A DNA stretch of 64,000 nt, taken from the NCBI GenBank assembly GCA_034440615.1, contig JAOTOM010003155.1, positions 1 to 64,000 on the forward strand. Direction: 5' to 3'. Numbering within the stretch: position 1 is the first letter of the stretch; the number at the start of each line of letters is the position of its first letter. The position numbers and the translations under genes were made by a program. The notes beneath the pieces are model-generated. The model made no database searches, had not been told where the DNA came from, and was given only the letters and a program-made list of their open reading frames with translations. Positions 7,350 through 57,418 of the stretch are shown piece after piece. Source of the stretch: Ashinkailepas kermadecensis (Eukaryota > Arthropoda > Thecostraca > Neolepadidae).

Positions 7350-8975
7350 TACATCGAAAACGTCGGCTGGCACCGTGGCCATTACGGCGCCGACGTGGCG
7401 AAAGGAGTTCACTATGCTCATTGTGGTGTGCTATCAGCCATGACGCCCGTAATTCAGTACGTTCCCCACACCTATTCCCCATGGCATCCCTCTATCAGCA
7501 TCTCAAGCATCCATAAAACTCCATGAAAACACCTTTGAATTGGCACCTCCATCAGACTGCTGAGACAGATCCATTATGATGCCAATGAATTGGTCCATAT
7601 TTGGCATCTCCGTCACCCCCCCTTCCGATAAATTGCCAGCGCCGTCACTTAAGTTGCGCCTGCACCCTTCTCCCTTTGCTTCGATGCAAGCGGCTGGCAG
7701 TAGTCAGTAGTCGTTGTTGACATTGGGAAGTCAGAATTAGTTGCATCATGAATACTGCGTTCACAATGTAATCATCCTGTCGGCAATTCCATCAGGGAAT
7801 ACGAAATATTGCTCCCTCACCACAATGGTGGTTGTCAAAAGTTGGGTGTTAAATATTCAGAGCAGATCCAAACCTTCTCGCCTCCGCACCGATTGCACAT
7901 GTATTTCCTCATACAACGCAGCGAGAGCTACCAGGAACCTCCTGATAGCCTCAGTTTTGCACAAGTAAACTCGACATTCTCCCCCTCCCCACCGACATGC
8001 ACAATCGTTTTAAAAAAACGTGATATCTATCGGAGGCCGTGTGCTCCACCCACGCAGTCCATCCAGCTAGCTTCTGTTTTTTTGTACTGGACACCACATC
8101 AAGTACACATTTTGGTTGGCTTTGCATCAAATCAGGGGCGGATCAAGAAATTTCCATGGGGAGCACTGGTCTGGAAGGACGTTATTTCTTCGGAGGTGCA
8201 CCATTGCGAAAGTGCCTGTAAGAGGCGCAGTCGGCTGAAAATTCACTTAGAGGGGAGGAAGGGGGATGCACATGCGTCTTCTGGGATGGGCGCCTTTTCC
8301 AGGACGGGGTGAGGACACATGCCTCTGGTGCTTCATGCATCCGCCCCTGCACCAAATCAGGCAGTTTGCTTCTTTCTTTTTTTTGCTTTTGCTGTTTCAG
8401 TTTACTCTTGGTAGTATTGTGCTTTTTTATTAAAGTAAATTATCGTTAAAAACGGTATTTGTTAAAAGTAAGAAATGCTTACATCACTTAACAACGAATT
8501 AGATGTACATCTACATATGAAGAGAATCAAGCGCCTTTGTATTTTATGTTATCTTTGTTTTAATCGCATTCATTTTAAATTATGACATCCAACAAGCTGC
8601 ATTCCAAACGCGTAACCTCCGTTGGTTCTGTGCCTTAAATCTTGGAAGGAAACTGGCGATCTAGGTGGTTTTCTAGTCAGTGTGGTAAATAAGCTGTAGG
8701 AATTCTTTTTTAATTCTTGGATTAATTTTTAGAGGAAAGTAATGAGTCAGGCTGAAAGGGGAAATAATTCTTTAAGTTACGCATATGTTTAGAAAATATT
8801 TCAACTCATTTTCATCGCAAATATATCCGTTAAGCATAACACTGCTTCCAAATATGGGAAAGCAATGTTTACCTTGTCGATCCTTGAACACCGCCCTTGG
8901 CTGCGGGGCCACGGGGCAGCTGGGTTTCGAGGCCGTGCAGCGGCAGTGTCGAGTTGACCTGGACCAGGTCTCCGA
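7350..8975. other. Unique spacer without a recognised feature
   Basis: About 1.6 kb, turning AT-rich after 8350. The longest frames (for example 7809-8312 plus) show no domain, no codon bias and no convincing splice signals. It would belong to intron 3 of TfAP-2 if the downstream exons lie further left. Confidence 0.5.
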
Positions 8976-8980
8976 CTCAC

Positions 8981-9118
8981 CTGTCCATCGTCCATGGTGT
9001 GGATTGGGTTGGGGATGACGATCGCCTCCTGGCCGTCGAGCACGTGCCCGGCGCGCATCAGCACCGTCTCTGGCCGCGTCATGTAGCGCGACGTGTCGTA
9101 CATGTGTACATTGGCCGC
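8981..9118 (-). CDS. TfAP-2: TfAP-2 exon 3 (linker after the activation domain)
   Basis: A 138-nt exon (46 codons, phase 0 at both ends) on the minus strand. The acceptor is CTGTTCCACAG before GCGGCC; the donor is GGACAG followed by GTGAGT (8975-8980). It encodes AANVHMYD..., then RYMTRPETVLMRAGHVLDGQ and ends ...PIHTMDDGQ. This lines up with the vertebrate AP-2 stretch that runs [20 protein letters not shown] and on to MEDVQ: shared positions include Y, RP, VL, H, LD and M-(D/E)-D-x-Q. AP-2 proteins are nuclear sequence-specific activators that bind GC-rich sites as dimers through a C-terminal basic helix-span-helix region, which is not in this window. Exon 2 lies 7 kb upstream in the same phase. 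Its first 75 or so bases and its acceptor are copied several times immediately upstream. Confidence 0.82.
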
Positions 9119-9194
9119 CTGTGGAACAGCCGTACGGTCAGGAGCCATCGTCAGGCGTGAGGCACATGGGGAACATACCACATGGAGAACATAC

Positions 9195-9830
9195 CACATG
9201 GCCGGCGCGCATCAGCACCGTCTCTGGCCGCGTCATGTAGCGCGACGTGTCGTACATGTGTACATTGGCCGCCTGTGGAACAGCCGTACGGTCAGGAGCC
9301 ATCGTCAGGCGTGAGGCACATGGACAACATACCACGTGGCCGGCGCGCATCAGCACCGTCTCTGGCCGCGTCATGTAGCGCGACGTGTCGTACATGTGTA
9401 CATTGGCCGCCTGTGGAACAGCCGTACGGTCAGGAGCCATCGGCAGGCGTGAGGCACATGGACAACATACCACGTGGCCGGCGCGCATCAGCACCGTCTC
9501 TGGCCGCGTCATGTAGCGCGACGTGTCGTACATGTGTACATTGGCCGCCTGAGGAACAGCCGTACGGTCAGGAGCCATCGGCACCGTCTCGGCCGCGTCA
9601 TGTAGCGCGACGTGTCGTACATGTGTACATTGGCCGCCTGAGGAACAGCCGTACGGTCAGGAGCCATCGGCAGGCGTGAGGCACATGGACAACATACCAC
9701 ATGGAGAACATACCACGTGGCCGGCGCGCATCAGCACCGTCTCTGGCCGCGTCATGTAGCGCGACGTGTCGTACATGTGTACATTGGCCGCCTGTGGAAC
9801 AGCCGTACGGTCAGGAGCCATCGTCAGGCG
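9195..9830 (-). repeat. Minisatellite of copied TfAP-2 exon 3 acceptor and 5' half-exon (five extra copies)
   Basis: The acceptor and 5' half of exon 3 recur upstream, with exon-like starts at 9272, 9410, 9548, 9637 and 9791; spacing is 154, 138, 138, 89 and 154 bp from the true start at 9118. Every copy keeps AG before GCGGCC. In four copies (9195-9272, 9333-9410, 9471-9548, 9714-9791) the exon-like part is 78 nt, open in the exon 3 frame, and is followed at CA(C/T)GTG by GTATGT, a plausible donor. The copy starting at 9637 is internally deleted. In the true exon the corresponding place reads CACGTGCTCGAC and continues as coding sequence. Confidence 0.9.
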
Positions 9831-9839
9831 TGAGGCACA

Positions 9840-10600
9840 TGGGGAACACACTGCCTCTGTCTGTCGCAGCAGCAACAGCAGCCGTACAGTCAGGAGCGCA
9901 TCGGCAGGCGTGAGAGGCACATGGAGAACATAGAACATGGCTGGCACCAACAGCAGCGTACAGAATAGAGAACACCCAGGAGCATCAGAGGGGAAAAAAA
10001 AAAAACTGTCTGGCGCAGCAACAACAGCCGTACAGTCCGGTGTCATCAGCAGGCGTGAGGCACATGAAGAACACACCACCCCTGTCTGTCGCAGCAGTAA
10101 CAGCCGTATAGTCCGGTGTCATCAGCAGGCGTGAGGCACATGGAGAACACACTGCCTCTGTCTGTCGCAGCAGCAACAGCAGCCGTACAGTCAGGAGCCA
10201 TCGGCAGGCGTGAGGAACATGGACAACATACCACATGGAGAACATACCACATGGCTGGCGCAACAACAGCAGCCGTACAGTCCGGTGTCATCAGCAGGCG
10301 TGAGACACATGGAGAACACACCATCTCTGTCTGGCGCAGCAACAATAGCCGTACAGTCAGGTGTCATCAGCAGGCGTGGGGGAACATTGAGTACGCACCA
10401 CACACCACCTCTGTCTGTCGCAGCAACATCGGCCGTACAGTCAGATGTCATCAGCAGGCGTGGGGAACATTGAGGACGCACCACACACCACCTCTGTCTG
10501 TCGCAGCAGCAACATCAGCCATACAGTCAGGTGTCATCAGCAGGCGTGGGGAACATTGAGTACACACCACCTCTGTCTGGCACAGCAACAGCAGCCCGCC
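9840..10600. repeat. Degenerate ~60-80-bp tandem repeat related to the intronic part of the exon 3 array
   Basis: Units share CAGCAGGCGTGAGGCACATG, a short CTCTGTCTG(T/G)CGCAGC block and CAGCCGTACAGTC. The first and last blocks also occur between the exon-like cassettes at 9130-9800, so this array is an extension that lost the exon portion. It contains no open frame of interest. From 10600 to 10940 nothing is seen. Confidence 0.85.
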
Positions 10601-16165: not shown

Positions 16166-16441
16166 GCTGACTGAGATGGCGTCCGACTCTGCCCGTCTGC
16201 CCAGGGCGGCCGGGTAGCTCTGGTGCTGCAGGCTGTTGCCCAGCTGGTAGGCCACCTCGCTGGGGTTGACGTGGTGCAGCGGAAACTGCTCGTTGGTGGC
16301 CGGGTTGTAGGGCGGTGGGAAGTAGGGCGGCTGGAAGTCGCCCGAGGGCGTGTGGGTCAGCCGGCCAGAGGCGCTGAAGGTCGGCGAACCGCCCAGTGAT
16401 GTGATCGGGCCCATGCCCGACGGGTGGCTGCCCACGCGCTC
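16166..16441 (-). CDS. TfAP-2: TfAP-2 exon 2 (activation domain)
   Basis: A 276-nt exon (92 codons, phase 0 at both ends). The acceptor is CTCTCTGTCGACAG before GAGCGCG; the donor is GTCAGC followed by GTGAGT (16160-16165). Exon residues 35-45 are DFQPPYFPPPY, the hallmark proline- and aromatic-rich activation motif of AP-2 factors, preceded by LTHTPSG as in the vertebrate LSHTPNA context. In vertebrates this segment is the target of WW-domain proteins (WWOX binds PPPY) and KCTD repressors; that partner knowledge is from the family, not from this sequence. After the motif come HVNPSEVAYQLGN and ALGRRAESDAISVS, which I do not match in detail. It joins exon 3 in phase. The acceptor and first ~48 bases are copied twice just upstream. 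Confidence 0.93.
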
Positions 16442-16770
16442 CTGTCGACAGAGAGGCAGAGTTAGGTGAGGTCAGGTCAGATCAGGTCAGGTCGCCAGAT
16501 AGCCAGTGATGTGATCGGGTCCATACCCGACGGGTGGCTGCCCACGCGCTCCTGTCGACAGATAAGCAGAGTTAGGTGATGTCAGGTCAGGTCAGGTTAG
16601 GCAGGATCAGGTCAGGTCAGGTAGTCAGACGGCCAGTGATGTGATCGGGCTCATACCCGACGGGTGGCTGCCCACGCGCTTCTGTCGACGGAGAGGTAGG
16701 GTTAGGTGAGACCAGGTCAGGTCGGATCAGGTCAGATCAGGTCAGATCGTCAGACGACCAGTGCAGCTGA
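16393..16770 (-). repeat. Duplicated TfAP-2 exon 2 acceptor junction (two extra copies) with GGTCA pentamers
   Basis: The 5' end of exon 2 with its acceptor recurs at 16503-16566 and 16633-16695; the common mark CCAGTGATGTGATCGGG starts at 16393, 16503 and 16633 (periods 110 and 130 bp). Both extra copies keep AG at the acceptor and the upstream TGTCGAC. The intronic parts between them are runs of the pentamer GGTCA. The extra copies stop after about 50 exon-like bases and carry no full exon. Confidence 0.9.
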
Positions 16771-43583: not shown

Positions 43584-46500
43584 AGCACACCGACCTGGCA
43601 GAACCGACCTCAGCAAACCGACCTGGCAGAACCGACCTGGCAGAACCTGCCTCAGCACACCGACCTGGCAGAACCGACCTCAGCACACCGACCTGGCAGA
43701 ACCGACCTCAGCACACCGACCTGGCAGAACCGACCTGGCAGAACCGACCTGGCAGAACCGACCTCAGCACACCGACCTGGCAGAACCGACCTGGCAGAAC
43801 CGACCTGGCAGAACCGACCTCAGCACACCGACCTGGCAGAACCGACCTCAGCACACCGACCTGGCAGAACCGACCTCAGCACACCGACCTGGCAGAACCG
43901 ACCTCAGCACACCGACCTGGCAGAACCGACCTCAGCACACCGACCTGGCAGAACCGACCTCAGCACACCGACCTGGCAGAACCGACCTCAGCACACCGAC
44001 CTGGCAGAACCGACCTCAGCACACCGACCTGGCAGAACCGACCTGGCAGAACCGACCTGGCAGAACCGACCTCAGCACACCGACCTGGCAGAACCGACCT
44101 GGCAGAACCGACCTGGCAGAACCGACCTCAGCACATCGACCTGGCAGAACCGACCTCAGCACACCGACCTGGCAGAACCGACCTCAGCACACCGACCTGG
44201 CAGAACCGACCTGGCAGAACCGACCCCTGGCAGAACCGACCTCAGCACATCGACCTGGCAGAACCGACCTCAGCACACCGACCTGGCAGAACCGACCTCA
44301 GCACACCGACCTGGCAGAACCGACCTCAGCACACCGACCTGGCAGAACCGACCTGGCAGAACCGACCCCTGGCAGAACCGACCTCAGCACATCGACCTGG
44401 CAGAACCGACCTCAGCACACCGACCTGGCAGAACCGACCTCAGCACACCGACCTGGCAGAACCGACCTCAGCACACCGACCTGGCAGAACCGACCTGGCA
44501 GAACCGACCCCTGGCAGAACCGACCTCAGCACATCGACCTGGCAGAACCGACCTCAGCACACCGACCTGGCAGAACCGACCTCAGCACACCGACCTGGCA
44601 GAACCGACCTGGCAGAACCGACCCCTGGCAGAACCGACCTCAGCACATCGACCTGGCAGAACCGACCTCAGCACACCGACCTGGCAGAACCGACCTCAGC
44701 ACACCGACCTGGCAGAACCGACCTCAGCACACCGACCTGGCAGAACCGACCTGGCAGAACCGACCCCTGGCAGAACCGACCTCAGCACATCGACCTGGCA
44801 GAACCGACCTCAGCACACCGACCTGGCAGAACCGACCTCAGCACACCGACCTGGCAGAACCGACCTCAGCACACCGACCTGGCAGAACCGACCTGGCAGA
44901 ACCGACCCCTGGCAGAACCGACCTCAGCACATCGACCTGGCAGAACCGACCTCAGCACACCGACCTGGCAGAACCGACCTCAGCACACCGACCTGGCAGA
45001 ACCGACCTCAGCACACCGACCTGGCAGAACCGACCTCAGCACACCGACCTGGCAGAACCGACCTCAGCACACCGACCTGGCAGAACCTGCCTCAGCACAT
45101 CGACCTGGCAGAACCGACCTCAGCACACCGAGGCAGAACCGACCTCAGCACACCGACCTGGCAGAACCGACCTCAGCACACCGACCTGGCAGAACCGACC
45201 TCAGCACACCGACCTGCAGCACACCGACCTGGCAGAACCGACCTCAGCACACCGACCTGGCAGAACCGACCTCAGCACACCGACCTGGCAGAACCGACCT
45301 CAGCACACCGACCTGGCAGACCGCCAGCACACCGACCTGGCAAACGCACACCGACCTGGCAGAACCGACCTCAGCACACCGACCTGGCAGAACCCCCACC
45401 GACCTGGCAGAACCGACCTCAGCACACCGACCTGGCAGAACCGACCTCAGCACACCGACCTGGCAGAACCGACCTCAGCACACCGACCTGGCAGAACCGA
45501 CCTCAGCACACCGACCTGGCAGAACCGACCTCAGCACACCGACCTGGCAGAACCGACCTCACGCACACCGACCTGGCAGAACCGACCTCAGCACACCGAC
45601 CTGGCAGAACCGACCTCAGCACACCGACCTGGCAGAACCGACCTCAGCACACCGACCTGGCAGAACCGGCCTCAGCACACCGACCTGGCAGAACCGACCT
45701 CAGCACACCGACCTGGCAGAACCGACCTCAGCACACCGACCTGGCAGAACCGACCTCAGCACACCGACCTGGCAGAACCGACCTCAGCACACCGACCTGG
45801 CAGAACCGAGACCTCCAGCACACCGACCTGGCAGAACCGACCTCAGCACACCGACCTGGCAGAACCGACCTCCAGCACACCGACCTGGCAGAACCGACCT
45901 CAGCACACCGACCTGGCAGAACCGACCTCAGCACACCGACCTGGCAGAACCGACCTCAGCACACCGACCTGGCAGAACCGACCTCAGCACACCGACCTGG
46001 CAGAACCGACCTCAGCACACCGACCTGGCAGAACCGACCTCAGCACACCGACCTGGCAGAACCAACCCTCAGCACACCGACCTGGCAGAACCGACCTCAG
46101 CACACCGACCTGGCAGAACCGGCCTCAGCACACCGACCTGGCAGAACCGACCTCAGCACACCGAACCAGACCTCAGCACACCGACCTGGCAGAACCGACC
46201 TCAGCACACCGACCTGGCAGAACCGACCTCAGCACACCGACCTGGCAGAACCGACCTCAGCACACCGACCTGGCAGAACCGACCTCAGCACACCGACCTG
46301 GCAGAACCGACCTGGCAGAACCGACCTGGCAGAACCGACCTGGCAGAACCGACCTGGCAGAACCGACCTGGCAGAACCGACCTCAGCACACCGACCTGGC
46401 AGAACCGACCTGGCAGAACCGACCTCAGCACACCGACCTGGCAGAACCGACCTGGCAGCACCGACCTGGCAGAACCGACCTCAGCACACCGACCTGGCAG

Positions 46501-49500
46501 AACCGACCTCAGCACACCGACCTGGCAGACCACCGACCTGGCAGAACCGACCAGCACACCGACCTGGCAGAACCGACCTCAGCACACCGACCTGGCAGAA
46601 CCGACCTCAGCACACCGACCTGGCAGAACCGACCTCAGCACACCGACCTGGCAGAACCGACCTCAGCACACCGACCTGGCAGAACCGACCTCAGCACACC
46701 GACCTGGCAGAACCGACCTCAGCACACCGACCCTGGCAGAACCGACCTCAGCACACCGACCTGGCAGAACCGACCTCAGCACACCGACCCTGGCAGAACC
46801 GACCTCAGCACACCGACCTGGCAGAACCGACAGACACGCAGAACCGACCTCAGCACACCGACCTGGCAGAACCGACCTCAGCACACCGACCTGGCAGAAC
46901 CGACCTCAGCACACCGACCTGGCAGAACCGACCTCAGCACACCGACCTGGCAGAACCGACCTCAGCACACCGACCTGGCAGAACCGACCTCAGCACACCG
47001 ACCTGGCAGAACCGACCCGCACACCGACCTGGCAGAACCGACCTCAGCACACCGACCTGGCAGAACCGACCTCAGCACACCGACCTGGCAGAACCGACCT
47101 CAGCACACCGACCTGGCAGAACCGACCTCAGCACACCGACCTGGCAGAACCGACCTCAGCACACCGACCTGGCAGAACCGACCTCAGCACACCGACCTGG
47201 CAGAACCGACCTCAGCACATCGACCTGGCAGAACCGACCTCAGCACACCGACCTGGCAGAACCGACCTCAGCACACCGACCTGGCAGAGAACCGACCTCA
47301 GCACACCGACCTGGCAGAACCGACCTCAGCACACCGACCTGGCAGAACCGACCTCAGCACACCGACCTGGCAGAACCGACCTCAGCACACCGACCTGGCA
47401 GAACCGACCTCAGCACACCGACCTGGCAGAACCGACCTCAGCACACCGACCTGGCAGAACCGACCTCAGCACACCGACCTGGCAGAACCGACCTCAGCAC
47501 ACCGACCTGGCAGAACCGACCTCAGCACACCGACCTGGCAGAACCGACCTCAGCACACCGACCTGGCAGAACCGACCTCAGCACACCGACCTGGCAGAAC
47601 CGACCTCAGCACACCGACCTGGCAGAACCGACCTCAGCACACCGACCTGGCAGAACCGACCTCAGCACACCGACCTGGCAGAACCGACCTCAGCACACCG
47701 ACCTGGCAGAACCGACCTCAGCACACCGACCTGGCAGAACCGACCTCAGCACACCGACCTGCAGAACGCAGAACCGACCTCAGCACACCGACCTGGCAGA
47801 ACCGACCTCAGCACACCGACCTGGCAGAACCGACCTCAGCACACCGACCCTGGCAGAACCGACCTCAGCACATCGACCTGGCAGAACCGACCTCAGCACA
47901 CCGACCTGGCAGAACCGACCTCAGCACACCGACCTGGCAGAACCGACCTCAGCACACCGACCTGGCAGAACCGACCTCAGCACACCGACCCTGGCAGAAC
48001 CGACCTCAGCACACCGACCTGGCAGAACCGACCTCAGCACACCGACCTGGCAGAACCGACCTCAGCACACCGACCTGGCAGAACCGACCTCAGCACACCG
48101 ACCTGGCAGAACCGACCTCAGCACACCGACCTGGCAGAACCGACCTCAGCACACCGACCTGGCAGAACCGACCTCAGCACACCGACCTGGCAGAACCGAC
48201 CTCAGCACACCGACCTGGCAGAACCGACCTCAGCACACCGACCTGGCAGAACCGACCTCAGCACACCGACCTGGCAGAACCGACCTCAGCACACCGACCT
48301 GGCAGAACCGACCTCAGCACACCGACCTGGCAGAACCGACCTCAGCACACCGACCTGGCAGAACCGACCTCAGCACACCGACCTGGCAGAACCAACCTCA
48401 GCACACCGACCTGGCAGAACCGACCTCAGCACACCGACCTGGCAGAACCGACCTAGCACACCGACCTGGCAGAACCGACCTCAGCACACCGACCTGGCAG
48501 AACCGACCTGGCAGAACCGACCTCAGCACACCGACCTGGCAGAACCGACCTCAGCACACCGACCTGGCAGAACCGACCTCAGCACACCGACCTGGCAGAA
48601 CCGACCTCAGCACACCGACCTGGCAGAACCGACCTCAGCACACCGACCTGGCAGAACCGACCTGGCAGAACCGACCTCAGCACACCGACCTGGCAGAACC
48701 GGCCTCAGCACACCGACCTGGCAGAACCGACCTCAGCGAGGCACCGACCTGGCAGAACCGACCTCAGCACACCGACCTGGCAGAACCGACCTCAGCACAC
48801 CGACCTGGCAGAACCGACCTCCAGCACACCGACCTGGCAGAACCGACCTCAGCACACCGACCTGGCAGAACCGACCTCAGCACACCGACCTGGCAGAACC
48901 GACCTCAGCACACCGACCTGGCAGAACCGACCTCAGCACACCGACCTGGCAGAACCGACCTCAGCACACCGACCTGGCAGAACCGACCTCAGCACACCGA
49001 CCTGGCAGAACCGACCTCAGCACACCGACCCCTGGCAGAACCGACCTCAGCACACCGACCTGGCAGAACCGACCTCAGCACACCGACCTGGCAGAACCGA
49101 CCTCAGCACACCGACCTGGCAGAACCGACCTCAGCACACCGACCTGGCAGAACCGACCTCAGCACACCGACCTGGCAGAACCGACCTCAGCACACCGACC
49201 CTGGCAGAACCGACCTCAGCACACCGACCTGGCAGAACCGACCTCAGCACACCGACCTGGCAGAACCGACCTCAGCACACCGACCTGGCAAGAACCGACC
49301 TCAGCACACCGACCTGGCAGAACCGACCTCAGCACACCGACCTGGCAGAACCGACCTCAGCACACCGACCTGGCAGAACCGACCTCAGCACACCGACCTG
49401 GCAGAACCGACCTCAGCACACCGACCTGGCAGAACCGACCTCAGCACACCGACCTGGCAGAACCGACCTGGCAGAGCACACCGACCTGGCAGAACCGACC

Positions 49501-52500
49501 TCAGCACACCGACCTGGCAGAACCGACCTCAGCACACCGACCTGGCAGAACCGACCTCAGCACACCGACCTGGCAGAACCGACCTCAGCACACCGACCTG
49601 GCAGAACCGACCTCAGCACACCGACCTGGCAGAACCGACCTCAGCACACCGACCTGGCAGAACCGACCTCAGCACACCGACCTGGCAGAACCGACCTCAG
49701 CACACCGACCTGGCAGAACCGACCTCAGCACACCGACCTGGCAGAACCGACCTCAGCACACCGACCTGGCAGAACCGACCTCAGCACACCGACCTGGCAG
49801 AACCGACCTCAGCACACCGACCCTGGCAGAACCGACCTCAGCACACCGACCTGGCAGAACCGACCTCAGCACACCGACCTGGCAGAACCGACCTCAGCAC
49901 ACCGACCTGGCAGAACCGACCTCAGCACACCGACCTGGCAGAACCGACCTCAGCACACCGACCTGGCAGAACCGACCTCAGCACACCGACCTGGCAGAAC
50001 CGACCTCAGCACACCGACCTGGCAGAACCGACCTCAGCACACCGACCCTGGCAGAACCGTAGCACACCGACCTGGCAGAACCGACCTCAGCACACCGACC
50101 TGGCAGAACCGACCTCAGCACACCGACCTGGCAGAACCGACCTCAGCACACCGACCTGGCAGAACCGACCTCAGCACACCGACCTGGCAGAACCGACCTC
50201 AGCACACCGACCTGGCAGAACCGACCTCAGCACACCGACCTGGCAGAACCGACCTCAGCACACCGACCCTGGCAGAACCGACCTCAGCACCGACCTGGCA
50301 GAACCGACCTCAGCACACCGACCCTGGCAGAACCGACCTCAGCACACCGACCTGGCAGAACCGACCTCAGCACACCGACCTGGCAGAACCGACCTCAGCA
50401 CACCGACCTGGCAGAACCGACCTGGCAGACACCGACCCTGGCAGAACCGACCTCAGCACATCGACCTGGCAGAACCGACCTCAGCACACCGACCTGGCAG
50501 AACCGACCTCAGCACACCGACCTGGCAGAACCGACCTCAGCACACCGACCTGGCAGAACCGACCTCAGCACACCGACCTGGCAGAACCGACCTCCAGCAC
50601 ACCGACCTGGCAGAACCGACCTCCAGCACACCGACCTGGCAGAACCGACCTGGACCGACCTGGCAGAACCGACCTGCACCGACCTGGCAGAACCGACCTC
50701 AGCACACCGACCTGGCAGAACCGACCTCAGCACACCGACCTGGCAGAACCGACCTGCAGAACCGACCGACCTGGCAGAACCGACCTCAGCACATCGACCT
50801 GGCAGAACCGACCTCAGCACACCGACCTGGCAGAACCGACCTCAGCACACCGACCTGGCAGAACCGACCTCAGCACACCGACCTGGCAGAACCGACCTCA
50901 GCACACCGACCTGGCAGAACCGACCTCAGCACACCGACCTGGCAGAACCGACCTCAGCACACCGACCTGGCAGAACCGACCTCAGCACACCGACCTGGCA
51001 GAACCGACCTCAGCACACCGACCTGGCAGAACCGACCTCAGCACACCGACCTGGCAGAACCGACCTCAGCACACCGACCTGGCAGAACCGACCTCAGCAC
51101 ACCGACCTGGCAGAACCGACCTCAGCACACCGACCTGGCAGAACCGACCTCAGCACACCGACCTGGCAGAACCGACCTCAGCACACCGACCTGGCAGAAC
51201 CGACCTCAGCACACCGACCTGGCAGAACCGACCTCAGCACACCGACCTGGCAGAACCGACCTCAGCACACCGACCTGGCAGAACCGACCTCAGCACACCG
51301 ACCTGGCAGAACCGACCTCAGCACACCGACCTGGCAGAACCGACCTCAGCACACCGACCTGGCAGAACCGACCTCAGCACACCGACCTGGCAGAACCGAC
51401 CTCAGCACACCGACCTGGCAGAACCGACCTCAGCACACCGACCTGGCAGAACCGACCTCAGCACACCGACCTGGCAGAACCGACCTCAGCACACCGACCT
51501 GGCAGAACCGACCTCAGCACACCGACCTGGCAGAACCCCTGCAGCACCGACCTGGCAGAACCGACCTCAGCACACCGACCTGGCAGAACCGACCTCAGCA
51601 CACCGACCTGGCAGAACCGACCTCAGCACACCGACCTGGCAGAACCGACCTCAGCACACCGACCTGGCAGAACCGACCTCAGCACACCGACCTGGCAGAA
51701 CCGACCTCAGCACACCGACCTGGCAGAACCGACCTCAGCACACCGACCTGGCAGAACCGACCTCAGCACACCGACCTGGCAGAACCGACCTCAGCACACC
51801 GACCTGGCAGAACCTGCCTCAGCACACCGACCTGGCAGAACCTGCCTCAGCACACCGACCTGGCAGAACCGACCTCAGCACACCGACCTGGCAGAACCGA
51901 CCTCAGCACACCGACCTGGCAGAACCGACCTCAGCACACCGACCTGGCAGAACCGACCTCAGCACACCGACCTGGCAGAACCGACCTCAGCACACCGACC
52001 TGGCAGAACCGACCTCAGCACACCGACCTGGCAGAACCGACCTCAGCACACCGACCTGGCAGAACCGACCTCAGCACACCGACCTGGCAGAACCGACCTC
52101 AGCACACCGACCTGGCAGAACCGACCTCAGCACACCGACCTGGCAGAACCGACCTCAGCACACCGACCTGGCAGAACCGACCTGGCAGAACCGACCTGGC
52201 AGAACCGACCTCAGCACACCGACCTGGCAGAACCGACCTCAGCACACCGACCTGGCAGAACCGACCTCAGCACACCGACCTGGCAGAACCGACCTCAGCA
52301 CACCGACCTGGCAGAACCGACCTCAGCACACCGACCTGGCAGAACCGACCTCAGCACACCGACCTGGCAGAACCGACCTCAGCACACCGACCTGGCAGAA
52401 CCGACCTCAGCACACCGACCTGGCAGAACCGGCCTCAGCACACCGACCTGGCAGAACCGGCCTCAGCACACCGACCTGGCAGAACCGACCTCAGCACACC

Positions 52501-53118
52501 GACCTGGCAGAACCGACCTCAGCACACCGACCTGGCAGAACCTGCCTCAGCACACCGACCTGGCAGAACCGACCTCAGCACACCGACCTGGCAGAACCGA
52601 CCTCAGCACACCGACCTGGCAGAACCGACCTCAGCACACCGACCTGGCAGACCACCGACCTGGCAGAACCGACCTCAGCACACCGACCTGGCAGAACCGA
52701 CCTCAGCACACCGACCCTGGCAGAACCGACCTCAGCACACCGACCTGGCAGAACCGACCTCAGCACACCGACCTGGCAGAACCTGCCTCAGCACACCGAC
52801 CTGGCAGAACCTGCCTCAGCACACCGACCTGGCAGAACCGACCTCAGCACACCGACCTGGCAGAACCTGCCTCAGCACACCGACCTGGCAAAACCTGCCT
52901 CAGCACACCGACCTGGCAGAACCGACCTCAGCACACCGACCTGGCAGAACCGATTTCAGCACACCGACCTGGCAAAACCGACCTCAGCACACCGACCTGG
53001 CAAAACCGACCTCAGCACACCGACCTGGCAAAACCGATCTCAGCACACCGACCTGGCAAAACCGACCTCAGCACACCGACCTGGCAAAACCGACCTCAGC
53101 ACACCGACCTGGCAAAAC
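43584..53118. repeat. Large 28-bp satellite array, about 340 copies
   Basis: The unit is CCTGGCAGAACCGA followed by CCTCAGCACACCGA; the two 14-bp halves share CCT at the start, ACCGA at the end and a CAG-type middle, so the unit arose from a 14-bp repeat. Isolated extra CCTGGCAGAACCGA halves and single-base indels occur. At 44100-44960 a higher-order period of 142 bp is visible. At the right end units drift (CTGGCAAAACCG). The plus strand has no stop in any of three frames, and 28 is 1 mod 3, so a 3,566-codon frame spans it with a 28-residue period. The minus strand has TGA in each unit. Confidence 0.98.
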
Positions 53119-57040: not shown

Positions 57041-57136
57041 TCTACCCGTGCAACCATCACGTGGCGGCGTCAGTAGCCACCAGGTGAGGGTGCCGGCGCC
57101 AGCCGCGCGCGTCCGCCAGTCGGTCGGCCGCCTCAC

Positions 57137-57418
57137 CTCCATCGAGTCGTCGTCCAGCTCGTGCTCCTCCTCGACCTCATCGTCCACGTCGATGGGTAGG
57201 TCGTCGGCGTCGACGTCGGCGGCGGCCAGGTGCTCGGCGGTGGTCACCTGCACCTGCGTGACGCGGCCGTCGATTATGGCGTAGGCGAGCTGGTTGTTGT
57301 TGTGGCGCAGCTTGGTGGGCGCCAGCGCCTCGCCGTCGGTGTCATCGCGGCCGAGCTCCAGCCTGCCTCCGAGCGTCACCTCAGAGCTGTCGCTCGCCGC
57401 CGGGCTCGTCTCAGCCAT
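57137..57418 (-). CDS. Acidic first coding exon of an unrecognised protein
   Basis: The minus-strand ATG at 57416-57418 has a good Kozak context (GCCATGG) in a CpG-rich region. The 94 codons read MAETSPAASDSSEVTLGG, then NNNQLAYAIIDGRVTQVQVT, then an acidic run DVDADDLPIDVDDEVEEEHE ending DDDSME. The exon ends at ATGGAG followed by GTGAGG (57131-57136), phase 0. Acidic, low-complexity N-termini with a short hydrophobic strand are common in nuclear factors, but I recognise no family. No downstream exon could be placed in the window. A chance GC-rich ORF would not be expected to have this composition and these borders. Confidence 0.55.

Follow-up and report, generated by a model that had tools for sequence, protein, structure and literature searches.

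What becomes of an exon edge that has been copied, splice site included, several times into the intron in front of it? The question is raised by a barnacle TfAP-2 gene, in which the 5' part of exon 3 and its acceptor recur upstream of the true exon – an arrangement that might supply extra exons, compete with the true splice site or simply leave with the intron. The stretch of DNA analysed here, referred to below as the window, is 64,000 nucleotides long and forms the start of one contig in an assembly of 907.7 Mb. We consider it probable that the array is a minisatellite built on an exon edge, such as is known in lancelets as a 'mirage': a mutational by-product that splicing normally discards along with the intron. 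This reading is preferred because comparable arrays lie at other exon edges, because the copies are near-identical and because their donor is also present in repeat units that hold no exon sequence.

The gene and its repeated exon edge

Barnacle TfAP-2 proteins match the window in three blocks on the minus strand, corresponding to exons 1, 2 and 3:

57128..57412, minus strand: TfAP-2 exon 1, coding part as placed by homology, with approximate edges
16166..16441, minus strand: TfAP-2 exon 2 (activation domain, PPxY region), 80% to the barnacle protein P0028
8981..9118, minus strand: true TfAP-2 exon 3, 138 nt, 89% to P0028

For exon 1, tblastn aligned residues 3–61 of P0028 with 57412–57227 and residues 1–102 with 57128–57418. 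The 3' end of exon 2 reads AGC/GTGAGT (the slash marks the exon–intron border), while true exon 3 has its acceptor at 9118 and the donor CAG/GTGAGT. Over 138 residues, the closest protein is TfAP-2 of Pollicipes pollicipes (91%), followed by that of Amphibalanus (85%). Exon 2 ends in DAISVS and exon 3 opens with AAN; since SVS is directly joined to AAN in the barnacle proteins P0028, P0029 and P0030, the junction between the two exons is in phase 0. Homology thus supports the proposal of an earlier note on this DNA that the duplicated element is the TfAP-2 linker exon 3 together with its acceptor.

Homology search of the window brought up no DNA-binding exons, and tblastn with a human TFAP2A query gave no convincing match to them there. 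One set of these exons lies on contig C3854, which probably carries the remainder of the window's gene, and a second set on contig C3924, whose gene, with its own exons 1–3, is the paralogue referred to below.

On the minus strand, the 5' part of exon 3 recurs five times upstream of the true exon, each time behind an AG acceptor. This is as the earlier note had described, and all the coordinates it gave proved exact to the base when re-read on the sequence:

9714..9791, minus strand: copy A, 78-nt open cassette, donor-like GTATGT at 9713
9579..9637, minus strand: copy B, truncated, one exon base missing, without donor
9471..9548, minus strand: copy C, 78-nt open cassette, donor-like GTATGT at 9470
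9333..9410, minus strand: copy D, 78-nt open cassette, donor-like GTATGT at 9332
9195..9272, minus strand: copy E, 78-nt open cassette, then GTG/GTATGT at 9194

The first exon-like base after the AG is at 9791 (A), 9637 (B), 9548 (C), 9410 (D), 9272 (E) and 9118 (true exon 3), so that the acceptors are spaced, in this order, by 154, 89, 138, 138 and 154 nt. The array adjoins the authentic exon 3 edge, which constitutes its last unit, the final 154-nt spacing running from 9272 to 9118. Unit lengths inside it are thus 89, 138 and 154; its main part was recognised by Tandem Repeats Finder (TRF) at 9179–9583 (score 782, 138-bp unit, 98% matches).

Four of the five copies – A, C, D and E – combine an acceptor, an open in-phase body and a donor, as the earlier note had stated: their 78 nt translate, in phase 0, as AANVHMYDTSRYMTRPETVLMRAGHV and are followed by GTATGT. 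The first 71 exon nucleotides show no difference among these four copies and true exon 3. The last 32 intron nucleotides are common to all copies and the true exon, save one base in B and C, and copy E and true exon 3 share the last 40.

An exon-free minisatellite and other edge arrays

The exon 3 array is the continuation of a further minisatellite, absent from the earlier note, that reaches to about 10600:

9879..10600 (end approximate), minus strand: intron minisatellite, probably the older one, TRF units of 76 and 86 bp

Its units contain GTRTGT and a CTGAC-type element, without any exon piece, and it is taken to be the older array because it is more diverged. Eight exon-free units, lying between about 10600 and copy A, align at 79–96% with the cassette unit's intron half, a ninth alignment being with copy A's own upstream flank; the exon-free minisatellite is the likely source of that half. 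GTG/GTATGT, identical to the cassette donors, occurs within it at 10247 and 10231; a donor-like site and an acceptor-like region therefore occur in the minisatellite apart from exon sequence. The point at which exon and intron halves join falls at CAYGTG, a sequence found both in the exon (GGGCACGTG) and in the intron (CCATGTG). The idea that a mobile element carried the cassettes was rejected, the unit being composed of intron minisatellite and exon.

With the anatomy, the homology and the second, exon-free array established, we infer a course of events that would begin with a minisatellite in intron 2 whose unit resembled the sequence around the exon 3 branch point and acceptor. Unequal exchange at the short shared sequence – GGGCACGTG in the exon, CCATGTG in the intron – may then have joined an intron unit, at its beginning (GTATGT...), to roughly the first 71 nt of exon 3; amplification of this 138-bp fusion, by slippage or unequal crossing-over, would have furnished the intron with five spare acceptors. 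True exon 3 would most likely be defined through its strong donor, CAG/GTGAGT, with the copies departing along with the intron; occasional misuse might add 26 residues to the protein or, where the weaker donor is passed over, bring in a premature stop and decay of the transcript.

Exon 3 of the window's gene does not look like a special case. In a self-comparison of 19 loci, covering the sequence within 1.5 kb of exon matches in both TfAP-2 genes, edge arrays were found at exons 2 and 3 of each gene and a whole-exon tandem pair at exon 4; exons 1, 5, 6, 7 and 8 of each gene showed no array within that distance. The exon 2 array of the window, likewise absent from the earlier note, is as follows:

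16501..16684, minus strand: two upstream copies of the exon 2 acceptor and about the first 49 nt of the exon, acceptors at 16551 and 16681

These copies have TRF units of 110/130 bp and vary at 4 of 49 sites. They possess no in-phase donor scoring above −3.35; out of phase, GTATGG or GTATGA reach 6.24 or 5.82. Exon 3 of the paralogue on C3924 has an acceptor-side array as well (TRF unit 83 bp, 6.7 copies), in which the four copies read besides the true edge all run into stops without an in-phase donor. Exon 2 of the paralogue (C3924 254118–257453) carries instead a donor-side array of 116-bp units, with AGC/GTGAGT exact in four places, the true edge included, and altered in a fifth. Past this donor array lie long C and G runs that resemble poor sequence.

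Such arrays extend to an unrelated gene, that for a TCP-1 chaperonin. Here, one of seven exon matches – a non-random sample, from one gene out of 52 matches, with the upstream flank of locus L066 left out – is bordered on its donor side by an array of units of about 30 bp (locus L069 446–716, on C4378). The array repeats what appear, from the reading frame and the donor-like site, to be the last 10 nt of the exon plus GTRCGT, the exon ending in CATCA/GTACGT; by a strict pattern, it comprises the edge itself and four further copies. The presence of edge arrays at exon 2, at two exons of the paralogue and in TCP-1 suggests that they are tolerated.

The repeat load of the genome also bears on how such arrays arise. 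Tandem repeats with a period of at least 10 make up 37% of the window and 3–45% of 14 fetched pieces. In three TfAP-2 regions, 14–35% of positions lie at least 10 nt inside a TRF array, and in 14 other loci, a non-random set chosen as matches of a dispersed repeat, the figure for tandem repeats is 9.8%. Of the 32 splice boundaries counted in both TfAP-2 genes, 3 fall within a TRF array – a count in which several exon edges are approximate and a short exon near 13.7 kb on C3854 is left out – or 4 of 32 with the window's exon 3, whose boundary was added by reading, since TRF ends that array at 9179. Three or four boundaries in 32, set against 14–35% of positions, do not exceed what random placement would yield and make special targeting of exon edges unnecessary.

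Several further features of these regions deserve mention in their own right. Intron 1 of the window's gene holds a 9-kb array of 28-bp units (43603–52661, about 323 copies), and just downstream of exon 3, at about 8717–8900, lies a dispersed repeat that is 70–81% alike to at least 38 places on other contigs. Tracts of the pentamers CCTGA/TGACC (here the slash separates alternatives) stand right before several acceptors, at 16450–16500 and 16690–16760 in the window and at 1655–1680 in locus L022; they resemble repeated branch-point motifs (CTGAC). Finally, the tandem pair at exon 4, the first DNA-binding exon, is present in both paralogues, its members being 81% alike over 114 and 92 nt:

C3854 19126–19323 and 19532–19699: tandem pair of the first DNA-binding exon, window's gene (probable)
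C3924 233780–233571 and 233370–233215: tandem pair of the first DNA-binding exon, paralogue

P0028 and P0031, which belong to different paralogues, display the two types of this exon, and the pair likely represents old mutually exclusive exons.

Possible consequences for splicing

Could the spare acceptors influence splicing without yielding new exons? According to this alternative, they compete with the acceptor at 9118, and the number of repeats tunes the dose of TfAP-2 through nonsense-mediated decay. The fallback position of the earlier note, that the array offers five potential decoy acceptors, stands as far as sequence goes, given that the last 32 intron nucleotides are near-equal in all copies; moreover, read-through from each of the five extra acceptors towards true exon 3 would meet a stop after 43–137 codons. 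A precedent for an intronic tandem repeat that affects splicing is available in the VNTR of human ABCA7 (PMC5954066). On the other hand, the lancelet arrays have been reported without disturbance of splicing, and the other edge arrays described above suggest tolerance. We regard a regulatory role of this kind as unlikely.

A more far-reaching proposal, made in the earlier note, is that the cassettes form a variable exon array, in which one to four of them are spliced in, each adding 26 residues to the linker, with their number varying among individuals. In principle, frame-preserving inclusion is indeed possible: the added residues would lie in the linker between the activation and DNA-binding domains, and all 16 of the 16 combinations of the four cassettes are open and in phase. 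In the last 32 nt, the four cassette acceptors resemble the true one, and each cassette ends in an in-phase GTATGT. Scored with a crude generic splice matrix, not trained on barnacles, the cassette donors reach 6.84, compared with 12.47 for true exon 3 and 5.68 for true exon 2; because the last of these, a genuine donor, falls below the cassettes, donor weakness alone is no proof that they go unused. By the same matrix, 14 of the 426 GT sites in intron 2 score at least 6.8, six of them inside the exon 3 array and eight elsewhere. Outside the array, an in-phase open stretch of 30–200 nt followed by a donor of at least 6.68 is found at 6 of the 167 YAG sites of intron 2 (17 of 339 AG sites). The coincidence of frame and donor is thus a modest one and has occurred once: as the cassettes are near-identical clones, it counts as one coincidence, not four.

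The invariance of the exon part could hint at constraint. Among copies A, C, D, E and true exon 3, none of 71 exon-derived sites varies; the intron-derived part, aligned for A, D, E and true exon 3, varies at 4 of 60 (Fisher p 0.042). The pattern is, however, also accounted for, and more simply, if the units were amplified recently or converted by the true exon. Purifying selection on the cassettes as a demonstrated fact was therefore rejected; the exon-derived part of the exon 2 array, for its part, varies at 4 of 49 sites.

Several observations speak against use of the copies as exons. GTATGT is present without an exon piece in the older minisatellite, and the in-frame donors, being copies of one unit, trace to a single event; the four copies read in the paralogue lack an in-phase donor. 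The introns that would separate the cassettes measure 60 nt (C–D), 60 nt (D–E) and 76 nt (E to the true exon), with 165 nt between A and C; animal introns are generally longer than 60 nt. Among 89 proteins recovered by protein database searches, the motif RPETVLM is present in seven, and none contains RPETVL twice; a search designed for tandem cassettes led to one known protein with a single block only. None of the 89 is known to be from this species, so their silence is weak evidence, and the 90%-identity clusters used in the protein search could conceal an insertion isoform. Cassettes of this kind were encountered neither in the paralogue (at the genomic level, where the four copies read lack the in-phase donor) nor in relatives (at the level of proteins). 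We therefore hold a variable exon array to be very unlikely, and less probable again its corollary, namely that mRNAs contain zero to four extra 26-residue linker blocks and that minisatellite copy number alters the protein between individuals.

That misassembled reads have raised the exon copy number is hardly credible: the copies are very alike, they come from one haplotype and the exon 2 region of the paralogue includes the poor-looking C/G runs, yet the copies carry fixed variants and differ in length (154, 89 and 138 nt, one being truncated), and different arrays occur at five edges, four in the TfAP-2 genes and one in the chaperonin gene. A second haplotype in the assembly was rejected: among the best 40 of 89 candidates, a search returned the window locus, the paralogue and the dispersed repeat of intron 3.

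A by-product that normally leaves with the intron would still be of some interest. Near-identical acceptors beside a true one amount to a natural test of how the spliceosome chooses its sites, and a published model of how exons and introns are gained takes edge arrays as its starting material (PMC3087553). Should any such array prove to be spliced in, the birth of an exon from a minisatellite would be visible as it happens.

Relation to known systems

Mutually exclusive exons resemble the barnacle array in being tandem exon copies within one gene, and the exon 4 pair looks like a case of this. The exon 3 cassettes, by contrast, are partial, near-identical and uneven in unit, with no sign of a regulated choice. 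The VNTR of human ABCA7 resembles the barnacle array as an intronic tandem repeat; it is not known to be a copied exon edge, and its effect on splicing has been described, whereas that of the barnacle array would be hypothetical. Earthworm metallothionein genes contain duplicated exon copies outside the final transcript, and intronic minisatellites occur in the family (PMC12783039); the exon 4 duplications, however, belong to one clone and are not known to form an exon-edge minisatellite.

Closer parallels come from work on the origin of introns. Intron gain by tandem duplication (PMC4974935; for Drosophila, PMC2891723) is similar in that duplicated splice signals can create new gene structure, whereas the barnacle copies probably remain intronic. 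In human duplicated genes, tandem repeats at exon–intron boundaries have been reported that may form novel introns (PMC2812944). As in the barnacle, the expansion is that of a minisatellite at an exon–intron boundary; transcripts back some of the human changes, whereas the barnacle array is known from DNA alone.

Closest of all are the 'mirages' of lancelets: minisatellite-like tandem duplications of an intron/exon boundary, affecting either boundary and retaining AG or GT signals in many units, which have been reported without disturbance of splicing from Adh3, BflGb6, BflGb9, troponin C and PGBD5 (PMC3087553, PMC3902484). In BflGb6, units of 150–160 bp copy the 3' end of an intron and the 5' part of exon 2, and the two haplotypes described have six and three of them (PMC3087553, PMC3902484). 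Among the titles and opening parts of abstracts searched, none concerned an exon-edge minisatellite in an arthropod. Like the mirages, the barnacle array consists of units that span an exon/intron boundary together with its splice site, with five copies of the AG. It differs in its host and in that an acceptor on one side and an in-phase donor on the other enclose four of its copies; furthermore, length variation between haplotypes is on record in the lancelet, whereas the barnacle array has been seen in genomic sequence of one haplotype. The array thus belongs to a known kind and, as far as the literature was searched, is new to arthropods, extending the lancelet phenomenon to an arthropod with a minisatellite-rich genome.
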